NCBI GenBank assembly: GCA_028711765.1
Contig: JAQTRP010000006.1
Location: 1-33,633 of the forward strand
Direction: 5' to 3'
Source: Candidatus Omnitrophota bacterium
Lineage (GTDB): Bacteria > Omnitrophota > Omnitrophia > Omnitrophales > JAQTRP01
Length of the DNA: 33,633 nucleotides
A program made the position numbers and the translations under genes. Below, piece by piece: positions 4,977 through 33,633 of the stretch (positions are counted from its first letter, which is position 1; every line of letters begins with the position of its first letter). The notes beneath the pieces are model-generated. The model worked only from the letters and a program-made list of their open reading frames with translations, did not search any database and had not been told where the DNA came from.

Positions 4977-5867
4977 ATGGTCAAAGATTATATCGAGTCG
5001 TTTATAAACTATCTTTCTGTTGAGAAGGGGCTTGCCCAGAACAGCCTCATCGCCTACAAGCAGGACCTAAATTCTTACGCAGATTTCCTTAAGGGCCTCG
5101 GCGTGGACGATGTCGCAAAGATAAACCGCAGCCATATCATGGCCTTTCTTGTTCGCGAGAAGGGAAAGAATAAGGCTGCGACCTCGATTTCCCGCGGGCT
5201 TGTGGCCATTAAGCTTTTTCACCGTTTCCTCACGAGAGAGCGCATCCTCAAGGAGGATGTCACGAGCGTCCTCGATTCTCCCCGTACCTGGCGTAAGCTG
5301 CCGGCGTTCCTCACGATTAAGGAAATAGACACGATGCTTGAGGTGCCGAATACGAGGAAAAGAGACGGCATCCGCAACCGCGCGATCCTGGAGCTTTTTT
5401 ACGCGACCGGCATGCGGGTATCGGAGCTTTCCACTCTGCGGCTTGAGGACCTCAATCTTGAGAGCGGTTTTCTGAAGTGCACGGGCAAGGGCTCGAAGGA
5501 GCGCGTCATCCCTTTGGGGAGAAAGGCGAAAGATGCCGTATCGGGCTATCTCGACCGCGTCCGTTCCAAGATCGCCGCCGCGGGCAAGGTCCCTTTTTTA
5601 TTCTTGGGTGCGGGATGTCACAGGCTCAGCCGGCAGACGCTTTGGAAACTGATTAAGCAGTGCGCCAAAGAGGCCGGCATAAAGAAGCGGATTACCCCTC
5701 ACACATTGCGCCATTCATTCGCGACACATTTGCTTGAGCGCGGCGCCGACCTCAGGGTTGTGCAGGAACTTTTGGGGCACGCCGATATCTCGACCACCCA
5801 GATTTATACCCACATCTCGCGCGACCGGTTAAAAAGCGTCCACGCCCAGTTCCATCCCAGAGCGTAA
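4977..5867 (+). CDS. xerD: Tyrosine recombinase XerC/XerD type
   Basis: 296 residues, the typical XerD length. It resolves chromosome dimers at dif by strand exchange, normally with a partner recombinase and FtsK. The N-terminal SAM-like core-binding domain is seen in FINYLSVEKGLAQNSLIAYK. The C-terminal catalytic domain holds the complete active site: Arg147 in GMRVSEL, Lys171 in TGKGSKERV, His242 and Arg245 in HTLRHSF, His268 in LLGHADIST, and the nucleophile Tyr277 in QIYTHIS. The choice of xerD over xerC rests on overall resemblance and is not certain; many phyla carry a single Xer. It is separated from upstream genes by the large inverted repeat. No integron or phage features surround it, so a housekeeping role is favoured. 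Confidence 0.9.
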   Translation: MVKDYIESFINYLSVEKGLAQNSLIAYKQDLNSYADFLKGLGVDDVAKINRSHIMAFLVREKGKNKAATSISRGLVAIKLFHRFLTRERILKEDVTSVLDSPRTWRKLPAFLTIKEIDTMLEVPNTRKRDGIRNRAILELFYATGMRVSELSTLRLEDLNLESGFLKCTGKGSKERVIPLGRKAKDAVSGYLDRVRSKIAAAGKVPFLFLGAGCHRLSRQTLWKLIKQCAKEAGIKKRITPHTLRHSFATHLLERGADLRVVQELLGHADISTTQIYTHISRDRLKSVHAQFHPRA

Positions 5868-9695: not shown

Positions 9696-9770
9696 GTGGA
9701 AAAAACATTTCTTAAAGTTATATCTATCATTGTCGTTGTTACGTTCACGGCGACGAATATCGCATGGGGG
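9696..9770 (+). other. Signal peptide of the giant protein
   Basis: About 25 residues: a short n-region with Lys3 and Lys7, a hydrophobic core ISIIVVVTFTA, and a c-region ending in Ala-Trp-Gly before Gln, which meets the -3/-1 rule for signal peptidase I. It predicts Sec export of at least the N-terminal part. Confidence 0.75.
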
Positions 9771-12700
9771 CAGCCCGACTTTGCCCATTCCGCCTCCAGC
9801 GTTCCTCACCAAATTGCTTGTCAAAATGCTCTGGATATTCCTAAAGAGTTAGGCATTGTTGATCAAGACAACCACTATTCCCTATCTACTAACGACTATT
9901 CACTGGTTCCAGACGTCATCTACATCCAGAGTGCTCACACGCATTTTGAAGCGCAGTCAAAGATTGCCGAGATCATTAAAAGAGTTGCAGCCGGCACAGG
10001 GGCTAAGACAATCGCCGTCGAAGGCGCCTCGGGTTCGATAGATCTCAAACTTTTCCGGTCATTTCCCGACGAAGAGACCAAAAAGAAAGTTCTCGGCTAT
10101 TACTTGAAGAAAGGCGAGCTCACCGGCGCCGAATACGCGGCGGTCTTTGGTAAAGAGACGAGCCTTGTCGGAGTCGAAGATAAAACTCTTTTTGATGAAA
10201 ACTACAAGGCGTTTCGGGAGGCCTCGGAGGCCGAACGCCAAGCCCTGAATAAAATTAAGGAGACAAGGCGCGCCCTTAACGAGCGAAGGAAGGACCTGTA
10301 TCCTCCCAAGCTCCTCACGCTCGCCCAGAGAGAAGAGGAATTCGTTGAGGGCGCCTGCTCCTTATCCGAGTTTTTGCCGTTTCTTTTTAGTTTCTACGAG
10401 AGAAACCGCCAAGTCCTTACGGCACCGGATAAGTTCGAGACCCTCAAGCGTTTCAATGAGACTATCGGCCTCTTGGGCTCGATAGATTCAAAAGAAATAG
10501 AGCGTGATGCGAAACGCCTTTATGAGCTCATCCTCGAGCGGGATCCTTCCTTAAAAAATACATCCGTCAGTTTTATGCTCGGCGGCTCGTGGAAGAAGAG
10601 GAATGTTTTCGTTAAGTCACTTGTGGAACAGGCCCGCGCACTCGGTATCGACTCCTCAAAGTTTAAGGCCATGTCAGGTTATGCGGACTATGTGCGGGAG
10701 GCTGAGTCAATCGACGGCATAAGACTGCTCGATCAAGTGAGATTGTGGATTAAGGCGATGAAAGAATGCCTTTTCCGGTCCGATGCCGAACGCTCGCTCG
10801 ATCAAGGCTATTCTTGGCTTGCGAAGCTTTCCTCGGTCGCCAAGCTTGAAGCCCTTCGTGAAGACGCCATCTTGTGCTTGGAAAATGAGAATAAGCTCAA
10901 GGAAATTTTGTCTATCGATGGCGCCAGATTTGAACAAATCTTTCGTCCGGCGCTGCGTTTTTACGAGCTCGCCCTTAAGCGTGACGAAGCTCTCTACGCG
11001 AATTTATCAAAACTTGCTCGCGGGAAGAAACCCGTTATTTTCGTCACCGGCGGATTCCACGTAGGCGGTATTACCGAACGGCTCAGGCAGGATAAAATCC
11101 GCTACGCCGTTATCACACCGATGCTCGAGGGTTCTCAGAAATTCGATCCCTATAGGGAGCTTCTAAACGGTAAGCAATCGGAGTTCACACAGTTCCTGAG
11201 GTCGTGCGTTAAAGAAGAGAATATACGGACGGATGAGGGAATTCTTCGCGAGGTTTATCGCCTCATTCAAGCGGAGGAAGAAGGGGCTAAGATCCGCCTT
11301 GACGGACGCGAAGTTTATTTCAGGCTCCGAATGAGCCCACAGGTCTTCACAAACGACCCCGATACAATCAGCGAACTCGAACTGTTTGACGTTAAGACAT
11401 CAGAAAAACCTTTCGGGAAAGCGAGAGAGGCCTTCGGGAAGCCGGCCTCGCGCGAGGAGCTAATCCGCGAAGCGGTCCGGAATAACGATTTCAAGGCCTT
11501 CAAGAAAGTTGTTTCCGAATCAACCGAAGAGGACAAGAAGACGCCGTTCCGTTATCTTAATTTTGATTCTTTCACCAATTCTATCCTCAAAGATTATTTT
11601 AAGATTCTAACAAGCGTGAAGAATGAAGCCGCCCTCCGTGAGTCTATCGATGCGCTTTTCCGCAAGGCGGAAGTGCAGGGCATAACCGAAATATTGGAAA
11701 CCGCTGTTCGTAGGGGCAAGGCATGCCTTGCCCCTACGTCTTCGGATGAGGCCACCTCGACCCTCGAGCGCCCCCTCGGCATGGCCGATTCTTATGGCCG
11801 ATTCCTTAATGTTTTTTCTCTTTCGAGACTATCAAAGGAACCCTTGCTCGCTTGCCAAGGATTGGCTCGAAGTTTAGGCGTTACTTTGGAGCTTGCCCGC
11901 CGTGAAATCGTATCGCGCGAAGAACCTCAGCCTCAACCTTCTCTGCCTCAGCCTGCGCAACAGCCTAAGGTTGAAGAACAGGTTGTGCCTAACTTTGTTG
12001 GCGCTAAAGCAACTTTTGAGATGCATTTAGAGGTTAGTAAAGAATCTGCCGAGGCCCACGAAAGTTTCCGAAAGACCAACAACGGCTACTCATTCGGAGG
12101 ATGGGAACTTGTTGTGCCGTCAAGCTCGGAATCTTTAACGAACATGGAGCTTAAGACAATAGCGGAGGCAGGTCTCACCGGCCCTGAGTGGAGGAAGTTG
12201 GTAAGCCTTGCGGTCAGGAACTTTTTTTACCAGATTTCGGGCGCTGATTCTAGACTCGGCGCGTGGTTTAAATTGGATGAGACAAGCCTCGTTATTTCCG
12301 GTTTTAATCCCGATAGCCTGAGAATCACCGGTAAAAAAGTAGTGATGCCCGCTGAGCGCTCCTATATTCGGCTCGGGAAGGAAGACAAATTAATGCTCGA
12401 TAGCTTGCAACAGGCGGCGGGCGATGTCGAAAGGCAGATTAAGATCTTCCTCGAGTATCTTTCGGAGAAAAACGAGGCGCTTAAGGAAGATGGCGCGAAA
12501 GAAAGAATCATACAGAGCGTTTTGGCTAATCTGCCACAGCTTAGGGCCGTTGCGCTTCCCGAAGGAGTAACCCCGGAAAGCGTTGTCCGTGACGTTGTTG
12601 CGCAGCTTGAGCTCTCGGGCGTAAAGGTCCCCTCAAAGATTAAATCGCTCGTTGAAGGTATGTTTGTTCTAAGCGAATGGGCGAAGCAGGCCGATTTCAA

Positions 12701-15700
12701 AACCAAACCGTTAGAAGAAGCCTTTGGGTATGACGATAGATGCGAGGAGCAGTACTCTGCCGTAAAGTCCGCAAAACCTAAAGTGACTCACCGCGAAAAA
12801 GTTTTAAAGCTCTCCGCTATTTTGTCCCACGCTCTTCCGTTTGTGTTCCGCTCGGCGAAGAGTGAAATTTTATTTGGTTCTCTGCGTTTTGCCGCAGCTC
12901 TGGCACTCGAGCAAACCGGCGCGCCTGCCCTCCGAAGCCAAACGCAGAAGCAGCTTGGCGAAGGAGGGTCGCTGGGGGAATCTAAGACAGTTCGCACAGA
13001 TATTTCGAAGAAAGCCGCAGAGATTAGAGAGTTGATTAAGGGTAATCCGGTTACGGTAACAATCGACGGGCCGGCAGGCGTCGGAAAAACAACATTGGCA
13101 TCCAACCTTGCCAGGTGCTTACGCGTTAGTTTCCTCCCTTACGGCAAGATATTCCGCCTTGCGTCGTTGCTTTCCTATAAAGAAGTTTCGCCGGAGGAAG
13201 ACGGAACTTTTACGAAGGACAATTTGGGCAAATTGGTTCGCATCGTAAGCGGTATCGAACCGGATAAATTTGACATCGAAAGACACGGTAGAGAATATCG
13301 TTATTTTTATGACGGCAAAGATATTACCAAACTTCTTGAGGGAGACGAAGTAGCTAATTTTACACCTCTTCTTGCGCGGCTGCCCGAGGTGCGTCCTATA
13401 TTGGTCAGATGTGCGCAGGGCGTCATAGCTGAAATAAAGCGCGACGGAAAAAGTATAGTACTCGAAGGCCGTGTAACCGGCGCAGAACTTGCGCCAGAGG
13501 CGAAAATTAAAATCTTCCTTAACGCGAATGTTCAAGAAAGAGCGTCAAGGCGGGCAGGGCAGCTTGTAGGTATGCTCGGCGAAGAAGAAGCATATCGTTC
13601 CGTAACAGGACGCAATCTGCCGCCTAAAACGTCCAGAGATAAGATTTTCGCCGAGCTTACCGGCATAATCGAAAAGGATATTGTTGAGCGTGATAAGAAG
13701 GATACCAAAAGAGAGCTCATGCCGCTTGAGCCGGCAGCCGGCGCCGTAATAGTTGATAATTCAGGATTTAGCGAAGAAGACACTTTAAAAAGTATCTTAA
13801 ATGTAATATTTGACAGGGTTCATAGTTACGGGGCAGGTGCGTCACTGGGGTTAGAATCCGTATATCGTATATCGTCCATCGTATATCGTGAAAAACAAAG
13901 TGCGACAGTCTCAGGGTTTGTCGGTATTGCTTTTAAACTTACAACTTACAACTTACCCTCCTTCACTCTTCGAGCTACGGAGGGCAGGCAGCTTACAACT
14001 GCCTCCGGCGCGTCGCTGGGGGAGGAACAGGATGTGGATAGACTCGCAGAGAACCTGAAAGCTCAAATTGTGCAAGACGATACTAAGAAGAGGTGCGTTC
14101 TGGAATTAGGCGATATAGCCATAGATGAAAATACTTCTCTACCCGTAGCAAGGCGTGCGATGGATAAGCTGGCAGATGTCCTGAACAGTTGTGGGTCAGA
14201 TGTTGTCAAAAGTGCATGCGTGGGGGTCTTGAACGATATAGCCTTAACCGCCTCTCAACCTGCGGCAAAGTGCGCAGTAGGTAAATTGGGAGATGCCATA
14301 AAATATGGAAGTCTATCATATGAAGTTAAAAGGCAATGTCTTCAGGCGTTAAGTAATGTAGTTCGGCATGCCACTCAATATACAGCAGAACATGCGCTAA
14401 ACAGCTTAACAGATGTCTTAAATTATAAAGATTTATCGATCGATGTTAAAAGAGATTGCGCCAAGGAGATAGTAAATGTAGCCGAAAGTCACACTCATGT
14501 TATAACGCAATATGCGGTGGATAGGTTAGGGGACGCGTTAAATAACGGGAGCCTGACCGGCGACGTTAAAGAGGAATGCGTTTGGGTGTTAAAACGTATC
14601 GCTCAATATGCCCGTGGAGACATAGCGCATTATGCCGTGAATAAGTTGGCAGATGCCGTAAACTACAAAGGCTTATCGGATGCAGTGAGAACCATGTGCA
14701 TCTTGACGGTATCAGATAGCCATTATCATTGTATGACAGAATATGCGGTGGATAGATTAGCGGATGCCTTAAATAATGGAGATTTATCGGATGACGTTAA
14801 AGACCTTTGCATAGACATGCTGGGAAATACGGCTAGAGAAGCCCATGGGTCCGTAATGGAACGTGCAGTGAATAAATTAGCGGGTGCTTTGGACCGTAAG
14901 GACTTATCGCTTAGGGTAAGGGCCAGATGTGCAGGGGTATTGGGTGATGCAGGCCAACGTTACAGTACCCACCCGTGTATGTCAAGCCAAGTATTGCGTA
15001 AGCTGGCGTATGTTTCGAGCTGTAGACATTTTCCGGATGATGTTAGACGCAGATGTGGTTTGGCATTAATGGTATTAAGGAGTACGTTTCGAGGAGTTCC
15101 TGAAGTTACTAAGACGTCCATAATTATATCCTTGATCAGAGATTCCATCGTAGCGAATAGCAATAATGTGCTGGAAACTATAGATAAAGAGATAGCGGAG
15201 ATAAAAAAATCCGAATGTATAAGTACGCTCGCATGGAAAGAAAAGCTTGAAAAACTTAATCGCAGAAAAAAGCGTCTAAGCGACCCCATATCTGAAGAGG
15301 ATAACAATAGGCTCACCGATATCTTCTCAAACCTCGAGATAAATGATCTTACATTAGGCACAAGGCAGTATATAAAGATGCGCCTCATAGCAATGTATCT
15401 TAGCGGGGAGGATATAGCTCAAATCCCCTTATCTCTCAATAAGGATATAGAAGAAGCGAAAAGCATAGAGAAAAAAGCAGAAGGTCTTTCTACGACAGGC
15501 GCAGAAATAGGGTTTCCGGTAGAACTTACAGCTTATGAGAAAGAAGCCGAAGCCATAGAAGTACAATGTAACATTGAGGGTGGCTCGTACAATGAGAAAA
15601 TCACGAATAAAGAGTTGCTAATGAGAGCCAAGGCAGGGAGACTTGCCATTATATTTAACTACTTTATGGACATAGAACGCTCAAAAGACTTTGGCGTTAG

Positions 15701-18700
15701 GCCTTGCGATATAGAAGAAGATTCGGACCAGATGGACTTACGCATACTCCCTTCAAACTATGAGATAACCCGGAAGGTACTGGATATTTATATAAGAGAT
15801 TTTAATCTGTTTACTCCCGACGAGCTTATATCATCCAGCTATGCCACAACAGTATCGGGGCTCCTTTATGACAAAAGGGGTGTTTTAATCGCTGTCGCCA
15901 GCTTTTATTTAGACAAGATAGACGAAGAATTAGAAGACGTATTCCTTGCCGATGCGCCAATTTCTCAGGCAGACGGCTTGGGCCATCCGGGCCTTATGCC
16001 CTACAGGGCAATCCCCGCTAAGGCACGAACAAGCCAGACCGTAGGAGAAAACGGTGAAGTCTCTTCAGGCCACGCCCAAATGACCTTTAATTACCATATG
16101 CTTAGCTTGGGATTCGAAATATTGGATGGAGAGGGCAAACCCTCAAAAAAGGTGTTGTTGCAGTATCCGGGGGATTACGGAAGAATAAGCCATATCGTAT
16201 CCATAGCCCTCGATAAAGAAAAATTCGACAACCTTATCTTAAAACCGGTCCTGTCGTTCTACAGAGATAAGCTTGACCTTAATGAAAAAGAAATAACGGA
16301 TATCTTCCCAGGTAGCAACCCCGCTGAAGATGAAGCGTTGCGTAAAGGGTCTACTTGGTTTTATAACACAAGTGTTGAGTTCTACGCTGTCGAAATAGCT
16401 CAGTCAATTGCATCCCTAGCCAACCTGCTTAGAATAGGCTTCCTCACAAGGCCCCTTAAGCCATCCGAAACTTTAAATGCGGATGACATTACTAATCTTG
16501 GGAGATACGGTCTTGAAGATTTGAAGGGGAGGATACTTAGAAGTCAAGACAAGATATATTCCCTTTTTAAAGCGCATCAGGATTTGTGGGACGGTATCGC
16601 AAAAACGGAAGTGCAATCAAAAGGCCAGAGTCTTGGCACGGCTCTTTATCCATCAATAGAAGTCACAAGGAGAAAAAGACAGCAGCCCGCAATACAACCA
16701 AGGAAGATACCTAGACCGGCACCCGAACCTGCGACTCCGGTGCCGGCACCCACCGAACCTGCAAAGGAACCCGTGCGGAAAGAGAGGACAGTGCCCGCGG
16801 GCGCATCACTGGGCGTTATTGGTGAGCGCCTGCCTGCTGGCAAGGCAGGGGTTAGCGAGTTAGCCGGTGAGCCGGTTGGGTCTTTGGCACACGGCACACG
16901 GCGCACGACTCACGACGCAAATACCGGCTCGTCGTTGGGGGAGGATTTGGGTCTTGAGATTTTAGGAGTCGGCGAATTTATCAAATCTGACTTTAAGGGT
17001 CCCATTGTTCTTGGAGGCACCGGATTCATAGGTTCGCATTTAGTTGAGTCATTGGCTGAGGACGGCCGCCGCGTAGCCGTAGTTTTTCGGTCGAGAACAT
17101 CTCCCTATTTCAGAAATCTTGCCGAGGTGTATGACAATCTGCGCAAAAAAGGGAAAGAGAAAAACTTGGTTTTAGTAGAGGCAGGAAATTGCGTAGACCC
17201 GATGGATTGGCCTCTGGATCGGGAAAATGAAGGAAGTGCCGCAAGGACTGTCGAGCAGCTTAAAGGGATTCTCTCTAAGGCTACGGTAGTTTTCCATCTT
17301 GCAGCTGCGTCGCGCACGAGACCGGAGGGGGGCGAAAGGTATCTCGAATTTGCATCAAGACTTTCTTTGACGAACGTTTTCTTTACAAAGGTTATTACCA
17401 GCCTCGTAAGAGAGGTCGGTAAATCGCTTGTTTATGCCTCGAGCGCTCATATATTTGCTTTGAGGCAGTTTTTCGGGAAATCGCTCGTAGAGCCTGTTAT
17501 CGAAATTGGGCTGGATGATATGCCGCTCCATGACAAGCTGAAGGATTTGATGAAGATGACCGACCGCGCTTATGATATTTATGCCGGGCAGTTCACTAAG
17601 AAGACCGGTTTGTCACCTCTTGAATTAGCCGTGGATTTTTCGACGAGCGGCTTTTTATCGGTTCCGCAGAATATCAGCGCGGGTTTTTATTCATTTTCTA
17701 AGGTTTTGCCGGAAAGAAGTATTCTTGAGGATCTTGCCGGAGGCAAAGGTTTTGTTGTGAGGTTTACAAATGTTTACGGTCCGCGTTCACAAAATGATGT
17801 TATCCACACATTTCTTTCAAAACTTATGGCAGGGCCTGACGAGAGTGAGCTCATCATGCGTTCAGAAGACTCGCGCAATTTCATTGCCGTTCATGATGCA
17901 GTCGGCATCCTTAGGCGTCTTTCTGAAAAGATCGAGAGCGGCAAGCTCCGCCAGAATGAGCTAATTCATGCCGCGTCAGGCGAAGAACCTTATACGATGA
18001 GGAGGCTGCTTGAGACTGTCGCAGGAGTCTTAGGAAAAGACCTCTCTGCTTATCCCGTTGAGGCGGTTTCAGGTCCTAACGCGTTAGTCGCTCCGCGGTT
18101 CAATATTGGAAAACTTCAGAAGTTGTTGGGTTATACTCCTCAGTCGCTAGAAGAAGGCATCCATCGTCTAAATGGCACCGGGGGCTCATCATTGGGGATA
18201 GACTGGGATTTGGTGATGCTGATTGCAATACCCCTTGCAACCGGATTGGGTACAGTGGCGGCGTCGGTGATTTTAAGAAGAAATAAGCTTGCCGGTTTTA
18301 CGATATCGGAGTTGATTGGCCTGATGGAGACGGCTGAAAAGCCCCATCAGGTTATAAAAGAACTAAGAAACCGCAAAGCCGAAGGCAGCGTAATCGAAGA
18401 GGCATGGACAAAAGCCTTGAGGAATGAAAAGTTAGCGGCCGGAACTTTCTTAAGAGATTTATTTGCTAAGCGGCAATTTGTTCACGTGCTGGCAATCCGG
18501 GAGCTAGCCAAACTCGGTACCGAATCCGCGACCGACAGCATAATCGATTTGGCGAAATCAGAGGTGGAATCTTCGTTGGAAAAAAGGGGATATCTAACAG
18601 GATTAAGTTTTACAACGGTTGAGGAATGCCTCAGTGCCCTAGGTATTAAACTTCCGCCGTCAAGCAAAAAGACGGCAGGCGCAAGGCTTGTAGAGGCCGT

Positions 18701-21700
18701 TCAAAAGCTCGAGAGAAGGAAAGCGGAAGAAGTTGTCAGCCGTCAGCCATCGGGCGTCAGCGGAAAGTCTTTAGGGCAGGGTGCGCTTAGCGCCGGGAAA
18801 TTGCGTAATGCCCTGATTGAGATAGCCGAGAACGGGAAGCTTCCGGCGGGTGAACTAAACTGTGACGATCTTATCGAATATTTTGATAAACACAGGCCGG
18901 ATCTGCTCGAAGGCGCAAGGACAAGAGAAGAAAAGGCAGCGCTTTTATATCTGGCTGTTTCGCAAGCGCAGATAATAGATGCCGCTAAGTGTAAGACGTT
19001 TGATGATTTAATCAATGATTCACGTAATGTCGTTGGGGGTATAAGTTTTGATGCAGTATTTAAGACGCAGGAACAGTCAGAGGGTGTAATTTTACCGCCA
19101 AATAGCTATACGGCTTTTGCTGTGGCCCAATATTTCGGCGATATGTATGAACAAATTAATTCGTTGGACGAGTCGGCATATAATAGGGACACGCTGAAGA
19201 AATTTCTTGAACTTGTCATCCATCCCGAGCAGAGAAAGTTTGTGGGACAATGGGAAAGGGATTATGCTGGTAAGCTGTCTGCTATGTCGGCGCAAGAATT
19301 ACAAAGGGAATGGGTAAAGGTTCATGGATCGAGAGGTAGATCAGTGTTTCCGCTTTATATTTCTTCAACGTATCTTTTTGTAAACGATACGATGCAATAT
19401 GTTCATCCATACCATCTTTATTTTAGGGAAAGTTTAAAACTTTTGGTTAAGCCCAAATCCGCGTCCGTCATAGAAGAAGAGATGAAGCCAGATCTCGTTT
19501 GTCACCTCGCCGCAATGGACATTTATCTAGAGTGGGCTTCGCGCCACTGGGCCCCCCGGCCGCTTGATAAGACCATAAAATCTATCCCCGCCAAGATAGA
19601 ACCCAGCCTTGAGTATATTAAAAATGCGATAGGACCTCTTCATTGGGATTTTAAAAAGAGGCGTGGAGGAGCAGCCGCGCCGGAGGTGCCTTTTAGAAAA
19701 AGGCCCATTGGCAAGATCCTTGCTAAACTTTCGGATGACGAAGCGAATAAAATACTTGCCGGTGCATCATTAGGGAAAGACGAAGCTAAGCCAAAAGAAC
19801 CGACCTCGAAAGCAGAAACGCTCCGCCGGAGTTTTGAAAAGAGGCGCGATGACGTGGTAATGGCAATTGCCATTATGTTTCACGGTGGGCCTCTATGTGT
19901 AAGTGAAATTATTTCCATAATTCGGTTTAACTACCATGCGTTACGCACACTTCCTGAGTTGCCCGGCCATGGATTCTCAAGAGAGAAATATATGGAGTTA
20001 AAGAGCTCTATGGCTAATTTAGGAGGTTGGTATCTAACGCTCTTTGATAAAGCGAAAGACATCAGCCGCAAAAAAGGAATCGATCCGGGCGCGGAAAAGG
20101 AACTTGCCGAACTCGAAATGCAATACGTGCAATATTTGAGACATATGGATGAGACATTGACATCCGTTATTAATATAGTCGAGACGCTTAAATCGCAACC
20201 AGCCGAAGGATTTGCGGCTCTCGAGAGACGTATCGAGCATATTTTAAGGAATTCTAAACGGATGGTTATGAATTGCCGTGCGATGTTGCAATTCATGACC
20301 AACGGTTCGTTTGAGGATATTCTATTGAGGCGATGGTTGATAGGATGCAAATGGGAGACGAAACCGAATCGGGTTCTCAGTAATATTAATACTTCTGCCG
20401 CAGAGTATGTAAAGTTGGCAGATGGTAAAGATTTTAAAGTTAAAATTCTTCCGGACTTAATGCACATAGCGCTCGAGAGGATAATCTCCAATGGATTTCA
20501 TGCTATGAAGGAATGGCCAGTGCCCGAACCCCATGATAAAATTTCTGTCACTGCCGAACCACAGGACGGTTCGAATACGCGGATTACAGTCTCATCGCCG
20601 GGTCGTATAGAGGAAGGTAAATTAGGCCGGTTGTTCAATCTTGATTACGAAAGACCTATTTTTAACCACGGGATAGGACTGCCGTTTACCGCAAGGGCTA
20701 TTCAAAAGATGGGGGGTACTATAGAAGCGCGAAACGTTACAGAGGACGGCTATCCGCGGGTTGAATTTGTGATAAGGTTAAGACAGTCTGCCGAGGCTAC
20801 GGCGGACGGGCACAACAAAAAAGCGGATGGCGCGTCGCTGGGAACGGACGGAGAGACCTTGCGGCGGCTCGATGAAGCTATCGGAAAAGTAGCGCTGGCC
20901 CGCAAGGAAATCGTGGAGTCCGGAAAGTTTGATTATGAGTCGGTGATTGCCAAAGCCATTTCGTATGGTTTGTTTACCCCGGCTTATCTTGCTGCCGGCA
21001 GCATTGATGAGGTGCTTGAAGCCCGGCATGGAGCCACGCGTTTGATAGAAAATTTTAGCTACTTAAGGACGTCCGGCAAGAAACCAGATCCATATTTTGA
21101 AAGCGGCAAGGAGATTATGGATGCACTGTTTAGCGGGATTTTCGCAAATATGGGTTTTGGAGTGTTCGATAGCGCAATCCACAGGGCGTTCGGCGATGCG
21201 GGCCTTCTTAAATCCGAGCACGGGCTTCACTCTAAGGAGTTTTTCGGGAAGGGGCCGTTGCACATTGCAGCACTACGGGTATTGTTTACGGCGCTTTTAC
21301 TTTTTCTTGAGAAAGACAGGAACAAAGTTGGAAAAGTATATATCGAGACTGGTTCCATAATTCATCCTTTCCGCAAATTATATTCCGAACCCCATGGTTA
21401 TTATCTTTTGATCAGCGCGATTTTGCGCAGCTTGGTTTCATTTGTTATTTTGGGCGGCGTAGGAAGAGATAAAATACACAAGGCATTCAATGAGATTGCA
21501 GAAACCAGAGATTTTAGGTACGGGCGCGGTATGTCTGCGGCTTTGCTGCACGGTTTACTCTTGCATGCCGTCCTTTTAAGGGCAGGGAATGTTGCGATAG
21601 GCGTTGATACCGTACGCATAGTTTATCGTAAGGTTATTCCCATTATTCCCGACGTCAAGCCTATGCCCGGGGCCGATAAATATGAGGCGCGGGTTGCGAA

Positions 21701-24700
21701 CGCGATATCACGCGGTTTGGCCGTATTGGCTGCGTTTCAGGAAGCCGGATTGATAGAACATCCTATCCTCGGCCGCTCGCTCGGCGAAGATGAATTTTTA
21801 GAAAAAATTGAAGAGATGCTATGTCGGCAACGTGTGATTTCTTATCCTGTTATGGATTCTTTAGAACCTTTGGCAAAAACTCACGAGCAAGACCGCCAAG
21901 ACCGCTCGGATTATAAAAATCTGAGAGACGTTTTCGGGTCTCTAAGAGACAGATATTGTGAATTAGTCGAATCGTTTGAACAGGGGCACAAGACTATTTT
22001 TTGGCTATGTGTCTACGGTGTATTAGTCTTGGAACCTTTGTTGTGTGGGTTTGCACGGTGCTCAGGAAACAAGGATTGGTTTTTACTTAGCGTGGTTTAT
22101 TACTTAATTGTTTTAGCCCTGGGGTTGCAATGGTGGCGCCGCCTGCCCTATGAAAGAAAGCAGTTATTATCTAAGTGCAAAGCAATAACACTGCTCGCTG
22201 CCGCTGCGTGGAAACTCCTTGAAGGTGAAAGCTGTCTTTCGGCGACTTATTATTATCCTGTCAAGCGTATTTACGATAATGCCTCCGATGAAACTATGGA
22301 ATGGGATGCTTCGAGAGTAATCTTGGATGTTCTTAAACATCGTACCGACCGCGGCCGCTCGCTGGGGGTGAAGATAGTGACCAGCGACTCGTCGTCCGTC
22401 GTCCGTGAAGAAAAAGCAACCCCAAGCATACCCGAGATACGGGTCACGGGTCACCTGCCTCGCCGGCCCGCTTCGACGAAGCGACAGCGAGGCGAGCAGG
22501 CAGGCGAGGCAGGGACTTCCGGCTCGCCTGCCCTCCGAAGCAAGCTTCACAGGGTTGCCCCAGAATGCGAAGGAGGGTCGCTAGGGGAGGGTTTCCGGCC
22601 GCAAAAGCCCCCCGAGGCACGAGGCACGGATCACGAGACACGGACTACATTGGAGTTTCTTGCAATCTGCGAGGAGTTGCGGACAGTAGAGATTTTTGCG
22701 GCGGTACAAAGATTCTTGCTTAGCAGGCCGGTAGGAAAACTTACATGGCAAGATATTGCGCGTAGTAAGTGGTGTCAGAATTTGTCTCCCACGCCGCGGT
22801 TCGACGAGGTCATAGAGGCGTTGCGTGATATATTTTTGCAGCATCCGGGGAAATACGAATTGGAAAGGGGCTTCGAGCAGTTAGCGCGCGGCGAGGAATT
22901 TGTATTAACGGGTAAGATACCCGAGGTGACTGAATTAACCGCTGATTTCGCTGGTAAAGGAACATTGCCCGACTCTGAGACTTTATTACCCGGAGCCGTG
23001 GTTTCCAAGTTGGCAGATATAGAAGAGCGTCTTCAAGAAGCGTCGAGGTATCGCAAAGGCAGCACGGATCGAAAAGCGAAATGGGAATCCGCGCGAACTA
23101 TTCTTATAGAGTTAATAAAACACGTTCCCTCTAGAGTGAGGATTAAAACTGAGTTAAGGAATGCGCTTCGTAAGGTTGCCGGGGTAGTAGGTGTGTACGA
23201 TTCAACGGAGACCTTAGAGCGTCACATTCAACAATTAAAGGAAACCAGCGGTAAAGAGGCGAGGGGAACGGTAATTTACCTTTGCCGCGAGAAGATACTG
23301 AAAAATAAAGACGTCAGAGATGAAACAGGCAAAATAAGCAACGATAAGGTATTGGATCTTCTGGCGCAATTAATAAATAAACAAAGGGGAAGCATTGCCG
23401 AAGATGAAGTCATAAAATTTGTGACCGGTTGTATCGAACGGGCGAGAAGTAAGATTGCGCCTGCGGCAAGATTTCAGGCAACGCAAGATACAAAGCATGG
23501 CGCGAGTTTGGGCGTTATCGGTGAGCCGGTGAGCCGGTTAGTCGGTGAGTCAGTTGTGCCTATTGAAGAGAAGAAAGGTATTCTTTCGCCGCTTAATCTT
23601 GGCCGTGGGGAGGTAGTGATTCTTTTAGGTAAGGAGGCGGTAGGTTATGAAAAATCTGCCGAGAGCTTTGGCGCGGCACAGGTTTTTAAGGCCCAAGATG
23701 TAAACGAGCTGCCGGAAGATGTGTTCGTGCACAGGTTCTTTGTTACGTTTAATAAGGATGAGTTTTTTGATCTCGGCAGACTCGAAAGCGTAATGAGGCC
23801 GCTCATCAAGTTCATCCAGCGCGTTGATTCCGTTACTAAGCGGAGCGGGCATGTGTATTTACTTGTGGACGGGATAGATTTTGAGAATGATCACCGGACG
23901 AGACGCGATTTTATCACACACGTTGAAAGATTAGCCAATGAGTATGACGTCGAGGTGACCGTAGCGCGTCCTGCGCACGAGAAGAAAGGTATTCTGCTTG
24001 AGTTTACCGATAGGGAACTCAAGCTAAAGCCGCAGCTTAAGACAGCTCCCAGAAAAAAATTGGCAACCGCCACAATGACCGCAACCGCATCGTCCCTTGG
24101 CATCGGCGCGTCACTGGGGCTAGAGTCCGTACATCGTACATCGTATATCGTACATCGTGAAAAACAAAGTGCGACAGTCTCGGGGTTTGTCGGTATTGTT
24201 TTTAAACTTACAACTTACAACTTACCCTCCTTCACTCTTCGAGCTACGGAGGGCAGGCAGCTTACAGCTGCCTCCGGCGCGTCGCTGGGCGATAGGCTCA
24301 AGCCCGTAAGGAATGATCTTTCGAAAGAGGAACTGCGGAATCGGGCGTTTGCGAAAAAGGCGTACGAACTTTCGCTCGAGATCCCGAGAGTTTATAAAGC
24401 GCGTAAACTGGTTGAGCCGAATAAGAGCAGGGCAGAATTCACGGAGCTTAACGGGGAGATCTGGGTTTTAAACGCAAGGCTTCTCCAGCTTTTTGATCAA
24501 ATTCCGCTTACAAAGGCCATGAGGGCGCGGATTCTAAACCGCCCGCCGCCGAGCGATAAACTCAATCAAAGAATTACCTCCCTCACCAAGCAGATAGAAA
24601 AAGCCAATTTAGAGAAAAATGATACAAAGCTTACGGAGCTTAATGAAAAAGTCAGAGTAGAACTTGAGAAACTAATTGCCCTCCAGCTGAGGCGCGTCCA

Positions 24701-27700
24701 CCTTTTCCTTCTAGGTAACAATTATCCGATCGCAAGACAGCTCCTCCTCAACGTCAATAATCTGTTTAGACGTCGCGCTCTTGAACTACAGTGGCAGAGA
24801 GTAAGAGAAGCTAAACAAGGCACAACAAGAACCCTTAACGTAGAAGGCATTGTCGCGGATGTGCTTAATGCCTTGTCTCTTACCGGTTTTGATATTACGC
24901 GCCACAAAGACGGGCGCGTAACAGTTAGGCAGCAGCGCTGGGCCAAATTTATAGTCGACGGTATCGAAGTTAGCGCAAAAAAGTGGCGCGACGTAGTTTA
25001 TGGCTCTACTGAAGAGGCTATTCGCGGCCAGATTCATACGCTCGAGAGCTATTTCGGCAAGGAGGATAAGGACGGCGAGATAGATAAAATCGAGTACCAC
25101 TTGGGGTATTTGAACGATGCGGCGTTGCGGCTTTCGAAGAGGACACGGCTCCCTGAAAAGGATAGGAAGATTATTCTCAGGGAATTGGCCAATGTTATGG
25201 AATGGGCGTCGCGCGGCGTCGACACGAAGACAAAGGTTGCGGAGTTGCTCAAGACTGTGCTTGGCTATAAAAACGGGCAAGCGAACGCAATTCCCGGTAC
25301 CATCGAAAATAAAGATTACTTATCCGCACATAAGGCGGTAGTCGATTGTATTAAGCAGCTTGAGGAAGTGAGGCTGCCCGAGATTGAGCGCATTGCCGCT
25401 AAAGTAAAGGAACGCCTCGCAAGTTTGATGAACGAGCTTGTGGGTGCGAGCGATAGAGACGTGATCGGTCTTGCCGGGCGCGCCCTTAGTCAACTCGCAT
25501 CCAAAGAATTGAGGGGCAAAGAAAAGACAAGAGCGGTTTCCCATACCCTCTACATTTTAAAGAATACTCACTTTAAGAAGGAACAGACCACCCCAGGCCA
25601 TAAAAGGGCGGCAGAGAACCTTGAAATCGCTCTCGGAAGAATAGGCGATATCGGTAATATCCTTGGCGGCAAAGCCCTCAAAGATAAATCCGACGAGGAT
25701 AGAAACGAGGCGATCCAAAAACATGCCAAATATGTCCGGAAGCAGCTTCAGCTTCTCGTCGCGAATATCAAGAATAAATATTTGAGCGATGAAGAATTCG
25801 GAAGGAAATTCGAGAATGGAGAAATTGATATTACCCAGACTACAATTTTGCCGGTGCCGGCCAACGTGAGTCTCGTAGACGCAACTTCCGGAAAGTCTGT
25901 CAACGGGGACGGGGCAAGCCTCGGCGAAGGGCCAGGGCCGCGCCGTGGTTTTTCAAGGGAGGGCGAGATGTTCGCGGCAATTGAACATGAAGCGGAACTC
26001 ATGAATAGGCATCCCGATTTACTCGGAGGCGTTAAGCCTCTTACGGTTAAATTTGCCAAGGAATGTTGCGAAAGGTTGTTTTCTGAGCTCCATCGTAGGT
26101 ACGCGCTTGGAGACGGAAGGCTTTATTACGAAATTCTCTGCGCCTGGAAGCTGTTGCAAAAAGTAAGGCGGGATGGAAATCCGTCTCTTTGCGTTGTTTA
26201 TCCTTCTGCCGAAGAGCATGTAGAGAAAACGGAGGCAGGCAATAAGGCGTTGGAAAATGAAAGCAAGCCATCGCATACCGAAATAATTGTGTTAACACCT
26301 TCAGAATTCGAAGAGGATTTTAATCCAAAACAACATTTTGAGACGCAAGGTCTTTTGCTGGAAGCGAGCGAAAAAGACTATGAGTTGGGAAGGTTTGACT
26401 ATAAAGATGGCGAAGACGGCATGGAGTGTTTTATTGGTTTTCATGAGTTGAAACGCCAAGGCGGGAAAGCCTTAACTCCAACGCGGATCGACAGCATCAA
26501 GAAACATACTTTTCATCCTGCGGGCGCAGAGGCAAACGCCTGGCCGGAGCCTAACGTAGAACCCACAGACATTATAGGTCCTTATCTTGAGGCGTTGGGT
26601 CGTTGCAGAGTTAGGGAATGGCTGGAAGGTTATTCCTGCGAATCGTGGATTGAAAAGGAAGAATACTATAAAGTAATACGCTGGATGAAGGAGCTCAAGC
26701 TTATGGTGCTCGGCGATAATGAGATAAGGAGCGCCGTGCTTAAAGGTGTTACCGGTTTCTCGGACAACACCAAACTTAGGGATTGGGCGCTCGCGAATTT
26801 TGACCTAGATGACGCCGCATCTAAAAGCTTTGCCGCCTTCTGGTCTAATATTAAGGACGAAGTATTCCGACAAAGGTTGTGGAGAGAAATAGTATCGGAA
26901 GATGACTGCATGCCGGAAGGCGGTGCGCCCGTCAAGAGGGGCCTTTGCGATTTTTATAAATTGGACTTTCCTTTTGAAAAACTTAGGAAAGACGGCGAAC
27001 ACGAGGGACACAAGGCCGGGGAAGTGGTTAAGATCAGGGAGTGGGTTACGGATGAGGCAAAGCTGAGAACATTGTTGTCTGACGGTAAACTGCCCCGAGA
27101 CGTGCGTGAACACGTTATGAGGCATACGATCTATGAGTTTGGCGTAGAGGACGGCGGCAAGTCCGCTTTCAGGCTTGATTCCGTAGCGGATATTTCCGAT
27201 GAGGTCGCTACGGTTCTGATCGATACACTTATTAAAATGGCGGTAAAGGGGTATTCTACAAGCTTCAGCGCAACTTTTAGGCCAAGACTCACCGGCGTGG
27301 TTAAACGTTTGGCCGAAGGAAATCATTACGGCAAGGTGCTTGAGCGTATCGCCTGTTTCTTAAGGTCTGCCGCGCCTCAGGATAACAACGATTATTTGCA
27401 GACCCGGCTTGCCGTAGTGTTTGACATTATGGAAGGTCTGAGAGCAGGACACCCGAATGCTTACAGGGAATTGGCATTTTACGGCGCAGTGGAACGCTTC
27501 GCGATTAACTTTGATGATATTGCGCGCGGTGCTGTATGCACACAGGTCAGAAATGGTGTTGCCGTATTGCAAAAAGAACTTTTCAGGATGGTACGTGCGG
27601 TACAGCTTGATCTTGCTCTTTCAAGAACGACAGAAAATTTAAGAAGGTCTATGGCGGATTTGCCGCAGGATTCGACAAACGTAAGTTTTACCGCCATCGA

Positions 27701-30700
27701 CGCAAATAAAAAAGCGGCCGTTGTTGATGTGTTTGAATTGAAATTAGGCAAAGATATAACGAAATACGGCCTGAGAGTAGGATCTGCGCAGGTTGGGGAC
27801 GCGGAGGTTATGTTTAAGAGCGGCAATGAAATCTGTTTCGATATTTTTATAAATCCCGAATTCCGGAATTTAAATGTTGAACCGTCTTTTGTAGAGTGGC
27901 TGCTGAGAAAACACAAGGAAATAACATGCGTCCGGAGTTTACATCCGGTCGACGCTAAAACCAAAATCTTATTCCTGGATTTAGAGCGAAAACGTATTTT
28001 TGAGAACGTGACCGACACTCACGTTGTTTCCGAAACCGGCGCCGAGCCGCAGGTTTTTCTCCTTGCTGCCGTCGCGCCGCGCGGAGATAACAAATCGAAC
28101 GTAAAACCGCAATCCGGCCGGAGCCTTGGCGAGACGGTTGGAGGCGCGATTAGACGGGTCAAAGATGGATTAAGAAAAAACCTGCAGTCGTTGCTGAGGC
28201 CATTTGAGGAGAAACGGAGAAACAGGTATATTGTGAAACTTGGCCGCGAGAGAGGGGGTAAAGAACTGGCGCTTTGCGTTGTTCCGGAGGAGTTGCAGGC
28301 AAGATTAAGGCGTCGTGATATACGATATGCCGTCGACGGACACGAGCTTCTTCTTCGAGCGGGCAGGTGTAAGAAGGATCTGTGGATTTCTTACGAACAA
28401 CCGGGGGCAAGGAGAAACGGGAGCGAAGAGATATTTCTTAACGTGGGAGGTTCCTTCGATGAAGTGGATTCAGATTACTCCCTTATTAGTTTTTCAGTAC
28501 AAGGAAGGACAATAGTTGTCAGCTTGCACCAAGATGGCGCGGTGACAATCGTTGACACTGTCAGATATTATTCGGAAAAAGGCTATGACCTTTCGCGGCT
28601 TCGCGGCAGGCTCGATACACCGTGGCTCAATGAATTTTACGATGAACTCGAGCGCGTTTCGGGCCGAAGCCTCGGGGAGGCTCCGCATAATCTTGCTGTT
28701 GAAGGTGCGGTTTTTATTTCGGATATAAGGAACGATATCAAGGGCGTTGCAGAAAGAATTGCGAAGGAAGTTTCCCGCGACTCAGGCGCTGTTGTGACTA
28801 TAGATACGACGCTCCACGGAAGCATGGTTTATCTTGCGGGGCGTGACGGCTGGATACCGAAGGCGGTTTTTGAAAAGGCAATCTATCTTAAGGATATTGA
28901 TTTCTTTGCGAATATTGCAGCCGGTGGCCCTAGCGAGGCGGCGGCATATGCGAAGGAGATTGCCCGCGAGGGGCTCAAGGAGGCGATCAAACCCTTGCAG
29001 CGTAAATACGGTAAAGCCATAGATTATTTTTTTGACAGTGACGTAGCGGAAGCACTTCTCGACAACTTACTGTTTTCAAGCCGTAAGGAGGACAATTTCA
29101 AGGCTACACAGTGCCTCGAGTCAAATATCAAGAAATATTTCAGGCTCTCATTTCTTATCGGAGATGATGATGTTTTCGAGGAATACGAATCAATCAGAAT
29201 GGAGTTTATGGCCGCCTGCCAGCTTCCCACGTTTGAGCAGGATAAAGAAATGCGCCGGCTTTCCGATCTTGCTGTCTCGCGGCTTCGCAAGCTTAAAGAG
29301 ATGGCCGATAAAATGCCGAGAGAGGAATTGCTCGAACGGGTTCGCGGACGTCTTTTGGGCCGAAGCCTTGGTCTTGACAGCTTAACACCCGAGCAAAAGA
29401 GAGCTGCGCGCGAAGCCATTGATGACGCCATTAGTAAATTGCGCCAAGTTAAGGGTAATCTTCAATACAGGCGATTGTTGTGGGGAGTCAGGGAGTTATT
29501 ATTGGTAAAAGGTGAGTATAAAGGTGCGGCAGAAAAGATCAGGCAACTTTTGCCGAGGCACGACCCCGATTTTCAAGACTCACCCTACAATATTATCGTG
29601 GGACGTTTAGGGGAAGTGCAGAGTATTTTAGTTTCTCTGATAATTCCGGGCGGAACCGACGCTCATAAGATAATCAACAATCTTGGTTTGCTTTGCAAGG
29701 ATCTTGTTAGAGTTGCAGGAACGTTATCTCGCCCTGAAGATAAATGGGCCGTAAGCGAAGCGGAGCAATCGGTCAAGGGTGGTCTTTATGCTTTGCTTGG
29801 GTTGGAAAGAGCCGGAGCGTTAAAATGTCTAGAGAAAGCGCTGGACAAGATACGCAACGTGCCGTGCGAGCAACGCGGGAGTTTAGAGTCGATAATATCG
29901 ATGATTAACGGCAGCTCGCTGGGGGTCGTTGGTGAGCCGGTTAGCCGGTTAGCGGGTAAGCCGGTTATACCGACCGGTCAACTGGCACACTGGCTAACTG
30001 GCACACTGGCTGACCAAACAGGCGCGTCGCTGGGCGAGATAAGTCCAAAGTCCAAAGTCTATAGTCTAAAGTTACCGGCAATGCTTAGGAAGATTGCGAC
30101 AGGGGCTTTCTTTGTGGGATTGGGAGCAGCGTTTACTAAGCAGACGTATATGATTTTGCATGAGACAACCCATAGGATTCCTTATTGGATTTTCGGCATT
30201 AGTCACGAACTTCAGCTTAAGGCGTGTAATTTGCTGAATCGTCTGCTTATCGATTGGGGATTGGCCGTAAGAATTCCGGATGTAAGCAAAGAGCTTGCCC
30301 AAGAAGCCGAGCGAAAGCTGAATGCGGGGAGTTTTGCTTCGCTTAAAGAGTTTTCTGAAGCAAATAGAATCGTTAGTGATTATTATACCTTTGCAAGGAT
30401 CAAGGTTACGGAACCGGGATTCCCGAGAACACAATTTGAAAGAGTAGTGTCTATCCTCGACGGTTATATGCCGTATATTTTCGCTGTGGTGCTCTTTGTT
30501 TTATGTCTTCAGATTACGTTTCGTTGCTGCGAGAAAATAAGAGATACTTCTAAAGTGAGCCTCGGCCGGCTTTATGTTTTGTGTTTCCTTATTCCGGTTA
30601 TGATTCATTGGATGTACTATTTCTGCCTTAATGCTTTTTTTGTCGATGTCGGCTGGAAGGAAGTTTTGAAGAATAGCTGGTGGATTACAAAATTACCTAT

Positions 30701-33633: not shown

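Follow-up and report, generated by a model that had tools for sequence, protein, structure and literature searches.

The window, by which we mean the whole stretch of DNA that was analysed (33,633 nucleotides), is an entire contig (G000:C71) of a Candidatus Omnitrophota genome of 1.9 Mb in 145 contigs, estimated to be 91.6% complete. A tyrosine recombinase of the phage integrase family (4977-5867) is found among ligA, alr and coaX-type genes, upstream of a giant open reading frame that runs on to the contig end. This frame opens with a signal-peptide-like segment and a head domain, beyond which a short motif, GxSLG, recurs at what appear to be the seams between modules. The features of the giant ORF are as follows:

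9642-33632, plus strand: giant ORF, stop-to-stop; 7,997 codons seen, open at the contig end
9696, plus strand: GTG, likely start codon of the giant
9696-9776, plus strand: signal-peptide-like N-terminus MEKTFLKVISIIVVVTFTATNIAWG (from sequence and alignment), common to the C31 giant
9810-11342, plus strand: TIKI/Ere-like head domain (alignments, AlphaFold2 model, PF04187 in relatives, weak fold matches)
9936, 10020, 10176 and 11058, plus strand: head residues His99, Glu127, Glu179 and His473, conserved in alignments
12963-12977, plus strand: seam motif GGSLG
13056-13808, plus strand: cytidylate kinase module (two Pfam pieces, between seams)
13836-13850, plus strand: seam motif GASLG
13836-14021, plus strand: 57-aa linker cassette, seam-bounded (genome-wide intergenic repeats)
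14007-14021, plus strand: seam motif GASLG
16623-16637, plus strand: seam motif GQSLG
16800-16814, plus strand: seam motif GASLG
16926-16940, plus strand: seam motif GSSLG
17004-17807, plus strand: NAD-dependent epimerase/dehydratase module (Pfam)
18183-18197, plus strand: seam motif GSSLG
18762-18776, plus strand: seam motif GKSLG
19761-19775, plus strand: seam motif GASLG
20463-20777, plus strand: HATPase_c (GHKL) domain (Pfam)
20829-20843, plus strand: seam motif GASLG
21771-21785, plus strand: seam motif GRSLG
22353-22367, plus strand: seam motif GRSLG
22572-22586, plus strand: seam motif GGSLG
23499-23513, plus strand: seam motif GASLG
24087-24101, plus strand: near-copy ASSLG, probably the 28th copy of the initial annotation
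24105-24119, plus strand: seam motif GASLG
24105-24289, plus strand: second copy of the 57-aa linker cassette, 94% identical
24276-24290, plus strand: seam motif GASLG
25911-25925, plus strand: seam motif GASLG
28116-28130, plus strand: seam motif GRSLG
28662-28676, plus strand: seam motif GRSLG
29358-29372, plus strand: seam motif GRSLG
29910-29924, plus strand: seam motif GSSLG
30021-30035, plus strand: seam motif GASLG
30912-30926, plus strand: seam motif GASLG
30984-30998, plus strand: seam motif GRSLG
32217-32231, plus strand: seam motif GASLG
32340-32354, plus strand: seam motif GHSLG
33168-33182, plus strand: seam motif GASLG

Two other modules, a membrane-helix-rich HETTH module (30036-30911) and a module with HNHP and a JAB-like look (32355-33167), gave no Pfam match even at E 1.

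Strict GxSLG was found 27 times in the frame of the giant ORF and not once in the other five frames of the window; as the contig stops inside the gene, this count is a lower bound. The initial annotation had reported 28 copies between 12963 and 33182. The range was correct, the start positions of the first and last copies being 12963 and 33168, as were 27 of the copies, and the 28th must be the ASSLG at 24087. Its spacing of 18 to 2,205 bases has to be revised, since strict copies lie 72 to 2,616 bases apart from start to start; the 18-base minimum arose because ASSLG sits 18 bases ahead of the GASLG at 24105. A tandem repeat protein, already discounted in that annotation, was rejected on the irregular period (72-2,616 bases).

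The same genome carries two more giant ORFs, on C31 (10,472 codons, 33 GxSLG) and C47 (2,678 codons, 9 GxSLG), and all three are truncated by contig ends. Together they hold 69 copies, partly non-independent as they come from one genome, against 0.8 expected from composition, an 84-fold excess in the comparison that had been set beforehand as the refuting test. Across 47,300 aa of non-giant ORFs from the same genome, the stretches from which background rates were taken, 3 copies were found against 1.5 expected. These results confirm that the motif is real and far above chance. It is also strict: swapping any one of the four fixed residues, even conservatively (T for S, or I or V for L), brought the count in the three giants down to about background, with 0-3 occurrences of each single-residue variant (GxTLG, GxSIG, GxSVG, AxSLG and others). 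At the free position, 65 of the 69 copies have A, S, R or K, and S or T before the motif and E or R after it are commoner than expected. The invariant serine is encoded by TCN in 51 copies and by AGY in 18, and almost every codon is used for the leucine and glycine; this mixture of serine codon families indicates a constraint on the protein, not on the DNA.

Pfam searches identified cytidylate kinase, epimerase and HATPase domains in the window giant; HEAT, radical SAM, GT2, two HATPases, UDPGP, response regulator, malic enzyme, HTH and DnaJ in the C31 giant; and HATPase, response regulator and acetyltransferase in the C47 giant. Pfam envelopes cover 10.1% of residues, and all 69 motifs fell outside them (probability of this by chance, 6.5e-4). 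Most inter-motif segments had no Pfam match, and segments were often one domain long, as for GNAT (144 aa), REC (146 aa), malic enzyme (464 aa), cytidylate kinase (286 aa) and a glycosyltransferase. A response-regulator domain begins 6 or 10 aa past a motif, and a homologous glycosyltransferase block 4 aa past one. Cross-genome homology blocks likewise respected the motifs, except that two head-domain matches extended a few residues beyond the first motif of C31. The 15 residues on either side of the motif are disorder-prone (z 7.1) and hydrophobic-poor (z -7.7); an AlphaFold2 model of one seam, run without an alignment, had a pLDDT of 41.5, too low to place the motif. The placement proposed initially, at seams between modules and inside no domain, is supported by the envelopes, the one-domain segments and the disorder-prone flanks, and the view that this is not a known linker family was likewise supported. 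A C-terminal sorting signal of the LPXTG or PEP-CTERM type was rejected, since motifs occur throughout the chain and the last usually lies 65-400 aa before the stop.

Motif pairs also enclose short cassettes of 24-60 aa, composed of short repeats that are found elsewhere in the genome between genes. As these are intergenic-type repeats, the linkers evidently take up DNA of this type without loss of the motif. Dispersed repeats at C118, C4, C90, C22, C73, C132 and C113 of the same genome (L193-L201) recur in frame inside the linkers of the giants, and several of them lie clearly in intergenic gaps, in both orientations.

The cytidylate kinase of the window giant (13056-13808) keeps its P-loop and LID residues and has GRV where a separate copy (L202) has the catalytic signature GRD, so that the giant's enzyme may be inactive or changed, and the release of active enzymes is not assured. 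The idea that it is the cell's sole copy, which would demand its release, was rejected, as another is encoded on C13. The only malic enzyme found in the genome (91.6% complete) is a module of the C31 giant (L001, residues 8976-9361).

All 47 searched genomes of the order contain the head domain, in as many as 43 matches per genome, and of 285 genomes sampled across the phylum 140 contain it; nearly all named records recovered with it were Candidatus Omnitrophota. Some copies are proteins on their own, about 520-545 aa long, and others begin long ORFs. A few complete head-domain proteins (L032, L061 and L179) have a seam-type motif just 10-14 residues before the stop. In an alignment of 51 heads, H99, E127 and H473 were invariant and E179 was conserved in at least 90% (window numbering), so that the 2His/2Glu catalytic set of TIKI/Ere-like hydrolases is present. 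This is the catalytic set of the TIKI superfamily, whose members include BcR135 and the site-specific endopeptidase RRSP (PMC6254334), and the 28-residue spacing of H99 and E127 equals that of H85/E113 in BcR135 and H3902/E3930 in RRSP (PMC6254334). An AlphaFold2 model of the head (pLDDT 86) returned EreC, BcR135 and HopBA1 among the top PDB matches in Foldseek, at weak E values of 0.5-1.2. PF04187 was detected in 7 of the 51 head relatives, with a best E of only 1.2e-3, and was absent from the window's own copy. The likeness to the TIKI/Ere/ChaN superfamily is confined to the head and consists of the 2His/2Glu set, the His-Glu spacing and the weak fold matches, whereas a large helical insertion sets the head apart and its sequence is too distant for a search against the PDB to have given any match. 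Judged from its sequence, the head thus resembles TIKI/Ere hydrolases, a superfamily that includes site-specific endopeptidases, and peptide-bond cleavage by it is putative.

Seam motifs were nearly absent within the head domain and were enriched 30-270 aa past it, at 5.5 against 0.6 per 1000 aa for the RSE-type motif and 1.8 against 0.8 for the SLG type. Across the order the motif differed by lineage, three families having [GA]xSLG, four R[SA]E[LVAMI]R and one AGFG. Families f7 and f8 use [AG]xSLG (G044, 31 copies in 29,113 aa; G046, 13 copies in 12,376 aa), and families f2-f5 use R[SA]ExR, of which 97 copies were found in the giants of 15 genomes, the residue at x being L, V, A, M or I with few exceptions and the serine position being alanine in 29. 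One of these 15 genomes has no R[SA]ExR and several have one to three copies, near the head. In family f6, represented by one genome, AGFG was found 8 times against 0.4 expected. The motifs are mutually exclusive, those of other lineages being at background in each lineage. Those of the sister lineages also have mixed codons and flanks that are disorder-prone or hydrophobic-poor, more weakly in some. The R[SA]ExR genomes group as a single clade of an RpoB tree (support 95/93); opposite them are the SLG families and f6, along with families f9 and f10, in which no seam motif was found. An unbiased pattern scan of the stretch after the head ranked AxSLG and RSExR highest, each in its own lineage, and gave no seam motif in other lineages, and 20 giants from outside the order, mostly from outside the class, yielded no convincing seam motif. 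Searching Omnitrophota more widely, as had been proposed, was thus the right test, but the expectation of finding GxSLG failed outside the window's lineage, as other families use R[SA]ExR or AGFG. What is new here is that giants of one kind, with a common head domain, are present in all 47 genomes of the order but carry a seam motif that is lineage-specific. One frame of 35,113 codons (G037:C37, L079-L083) holds 24,000 unknown residues (X); with so many unknown bases its length is unreliable and it was not used. A giant from outside the order (L097, G214) has eight copies of a unit containing FxHNP, possibly repeated JAB-like domains.

A pentapeptide kept strictly while the linkers around it drift, and placed where unrelated enzymes join in a chain that a putative hydrolase heads, is most simply accounted for as a processing recognition site. 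The giant would be a polyprotein-like chain with a signal-peptide-like N-terminus, a TIKI/Ere-like hydrolase head and then dozens of unrelated modules, strung together on linkers that change fast and tend to disorder. GxSLG would be a short linear motif in these linkers, recognised by one enzyme acting in trans or in cis, most likely an endopeptidase that would cut at GxSLG and release the modules. We infer that the recogniser is a protease, and more speculatively that it is the TIKI-like head itself. Enzymes with a specificity of their own in each lineage would put a different motif at the same place, and the lineage-wise swap is what such specificities would lead one to expect. GxSLG may well serve in this way as the recognition site, and probably the putative cleavage site, of a polyprotein-like giant, a reading that we hold tentatively. 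Several observations weigh against it. Apart from the TIKI-like head, whose fold and profile support is weak, no peptidase domain could be recognised in the window giant, and the 20 giants from outside the order gave no such motif. Some modules may be degenerate, as in the loss of GRD from the cytidylate kinase, and the scarcity of Pfam matches between motifs also counts against the reading. Dozens of sites switching at once would be hard for a protease; a way round this would be an ancestor with only one to three sites near the head, each lineage then multiplying its own, and one to three sites beside the head are still seen in many giants of the RSE clade. A wider proposal, held with less confidence, is that of a cellular polyprotein system in which many genes have been fused into giants and a dedicated enzyme, which may be the TIKI-like head, cuts these at a code particular to each lineage, code and enzyme having changed together at the split between the SLG side and the RSExR clade.

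The main rival to cleavage is uncut docking or anchoring, in which a binding protein would grip each GxSLG and hold the chain, along the envelope for instance. Binding suits the strictness, the disordered flanks and the lineage-specific motifs as well as cleavage does, and some modules have membrane-helix-like stretches; however, the motif pairs flank intergenic-repeat cassettes where no anchor is needed, and motifs adjoin the N-termini of modules. We consider docking rather unlikely. The initial annotation had offered a protease site and a docking peptide as options; of these, the protease site is favoured as the more probable.

Its third option, a scar of DNA-level recombination or fusion in which modules were joined at a 15-bp sequence that has no function in the protein, is improbable. 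Three linker cassettes (188, 180 and 125 bp) are duplicated at 93-98% identity, with ends that coincide with a motif in all but one case, the codons CTG, TCG and GGC/GGG are over-represented, and the linkers contain dispersed intergenic repeats, all of which would suit a scar. Most copies, however, share no DNA flanks, both serine codon families and several codons at each motif position are in use, and single-residue variants are absent although scars would decay. The replacement of the motif by unrelated ones in sister families is a further argument against a scar. A mobile DNA repeat within ORFs (RPE-like) was rejected on the mixed TCN/AGY codons and unrelated flanks of most copies, although the linker cassettes do hold repeats.

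Slightly less probable again is that the motif is an acceptor for covalent modification in the linkers, for instance on its serine. That residue is invariant and a serine or threonine is preferred at -1 in the host genome, but the equivalent AGFG has no serine and R[SA]ExR accepts alanine in its place (29 of 97). A neutral flexible linker, or a by-product of composition, would fit the Gly/Ser content and disordered surroundings, and is very improbable, being refuted by four positions that tolerate no substitution while the nearby linker drifts, and by the 84-fold excess. The string G-x-S-x-G also recalls the nucleophile elbow of serine hydrolases and acyltransferases (GHSLGE resembles FabD), a reading that is extremely unlikely, as Pfam scans of the three giants gave no hydrolase or acyltransferase domain and none of the 69 motifs lies within any Pfam domain, the surroundings are low in hydrophobicity, and RSExR or AGFG replaces GxSLG in sister lineages.

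Viral polyproteins carry a recurrent short motif at their domain junctions, and different viruses have different motifs, each cut by the virus's own protease. The giants share with them a recurrent strict motif between independent domains; they differ in being encoded by cellular bacterial genes, in exceeding 10,000 residues and in occurring several to a genome, and their protease is putative. The multifunctional autoprocessing RTX (MARTX) toxins, which include the TIKI-family endopeptidase RRSP among their modules (PMC6254334), are likewise very large single chains of independent modules with site-specific release by an internal protease, known in MARTX and conjectural here, but the modules of the Omnitrophota giants are not toxin domains, and neither the cysteine protease domain nor the RTX repeats of MARTX gave a Pfam match in the three giants. 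Giant ORFs of more than 20 kb are typical of the phylum (Seymour et al. 2023, PMC10066038), V. archaeovorus encoding a protein of 39,678 aa, and those described there resemble ours in size and in having few annotated domains. That study stresses adhesins, whereas the modules here are largely cytosolic-type enzymes and regulators with a strict lineage-specific motif, and a word search of it found no seam motif described. A literature search, which did not extend to bioRxiv preprints (where an earlier report of the motif is possible), found no report of bacterial polyproteins. Precedents thus exist separately for giant ORFs in the phylum, for the TIKI/Ere fold and for polyprotein processing; the novelty lies in the seam code and the polyprotein-like architecture taken together.

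Few features of the Omnitrophota are as odd as their giant ORFs, and the seam code provides a handle on how they work. With it, module boundaries can be drawn without recourse to homology, the precise ends to look for by proteomics can be predicted, and the existence of long cellular polyproteins in bacteria can be put to a test. The exchange of a whole motif between sister families would be a natural experiment in the co-evolution of a recogniser with dozens of its sites.
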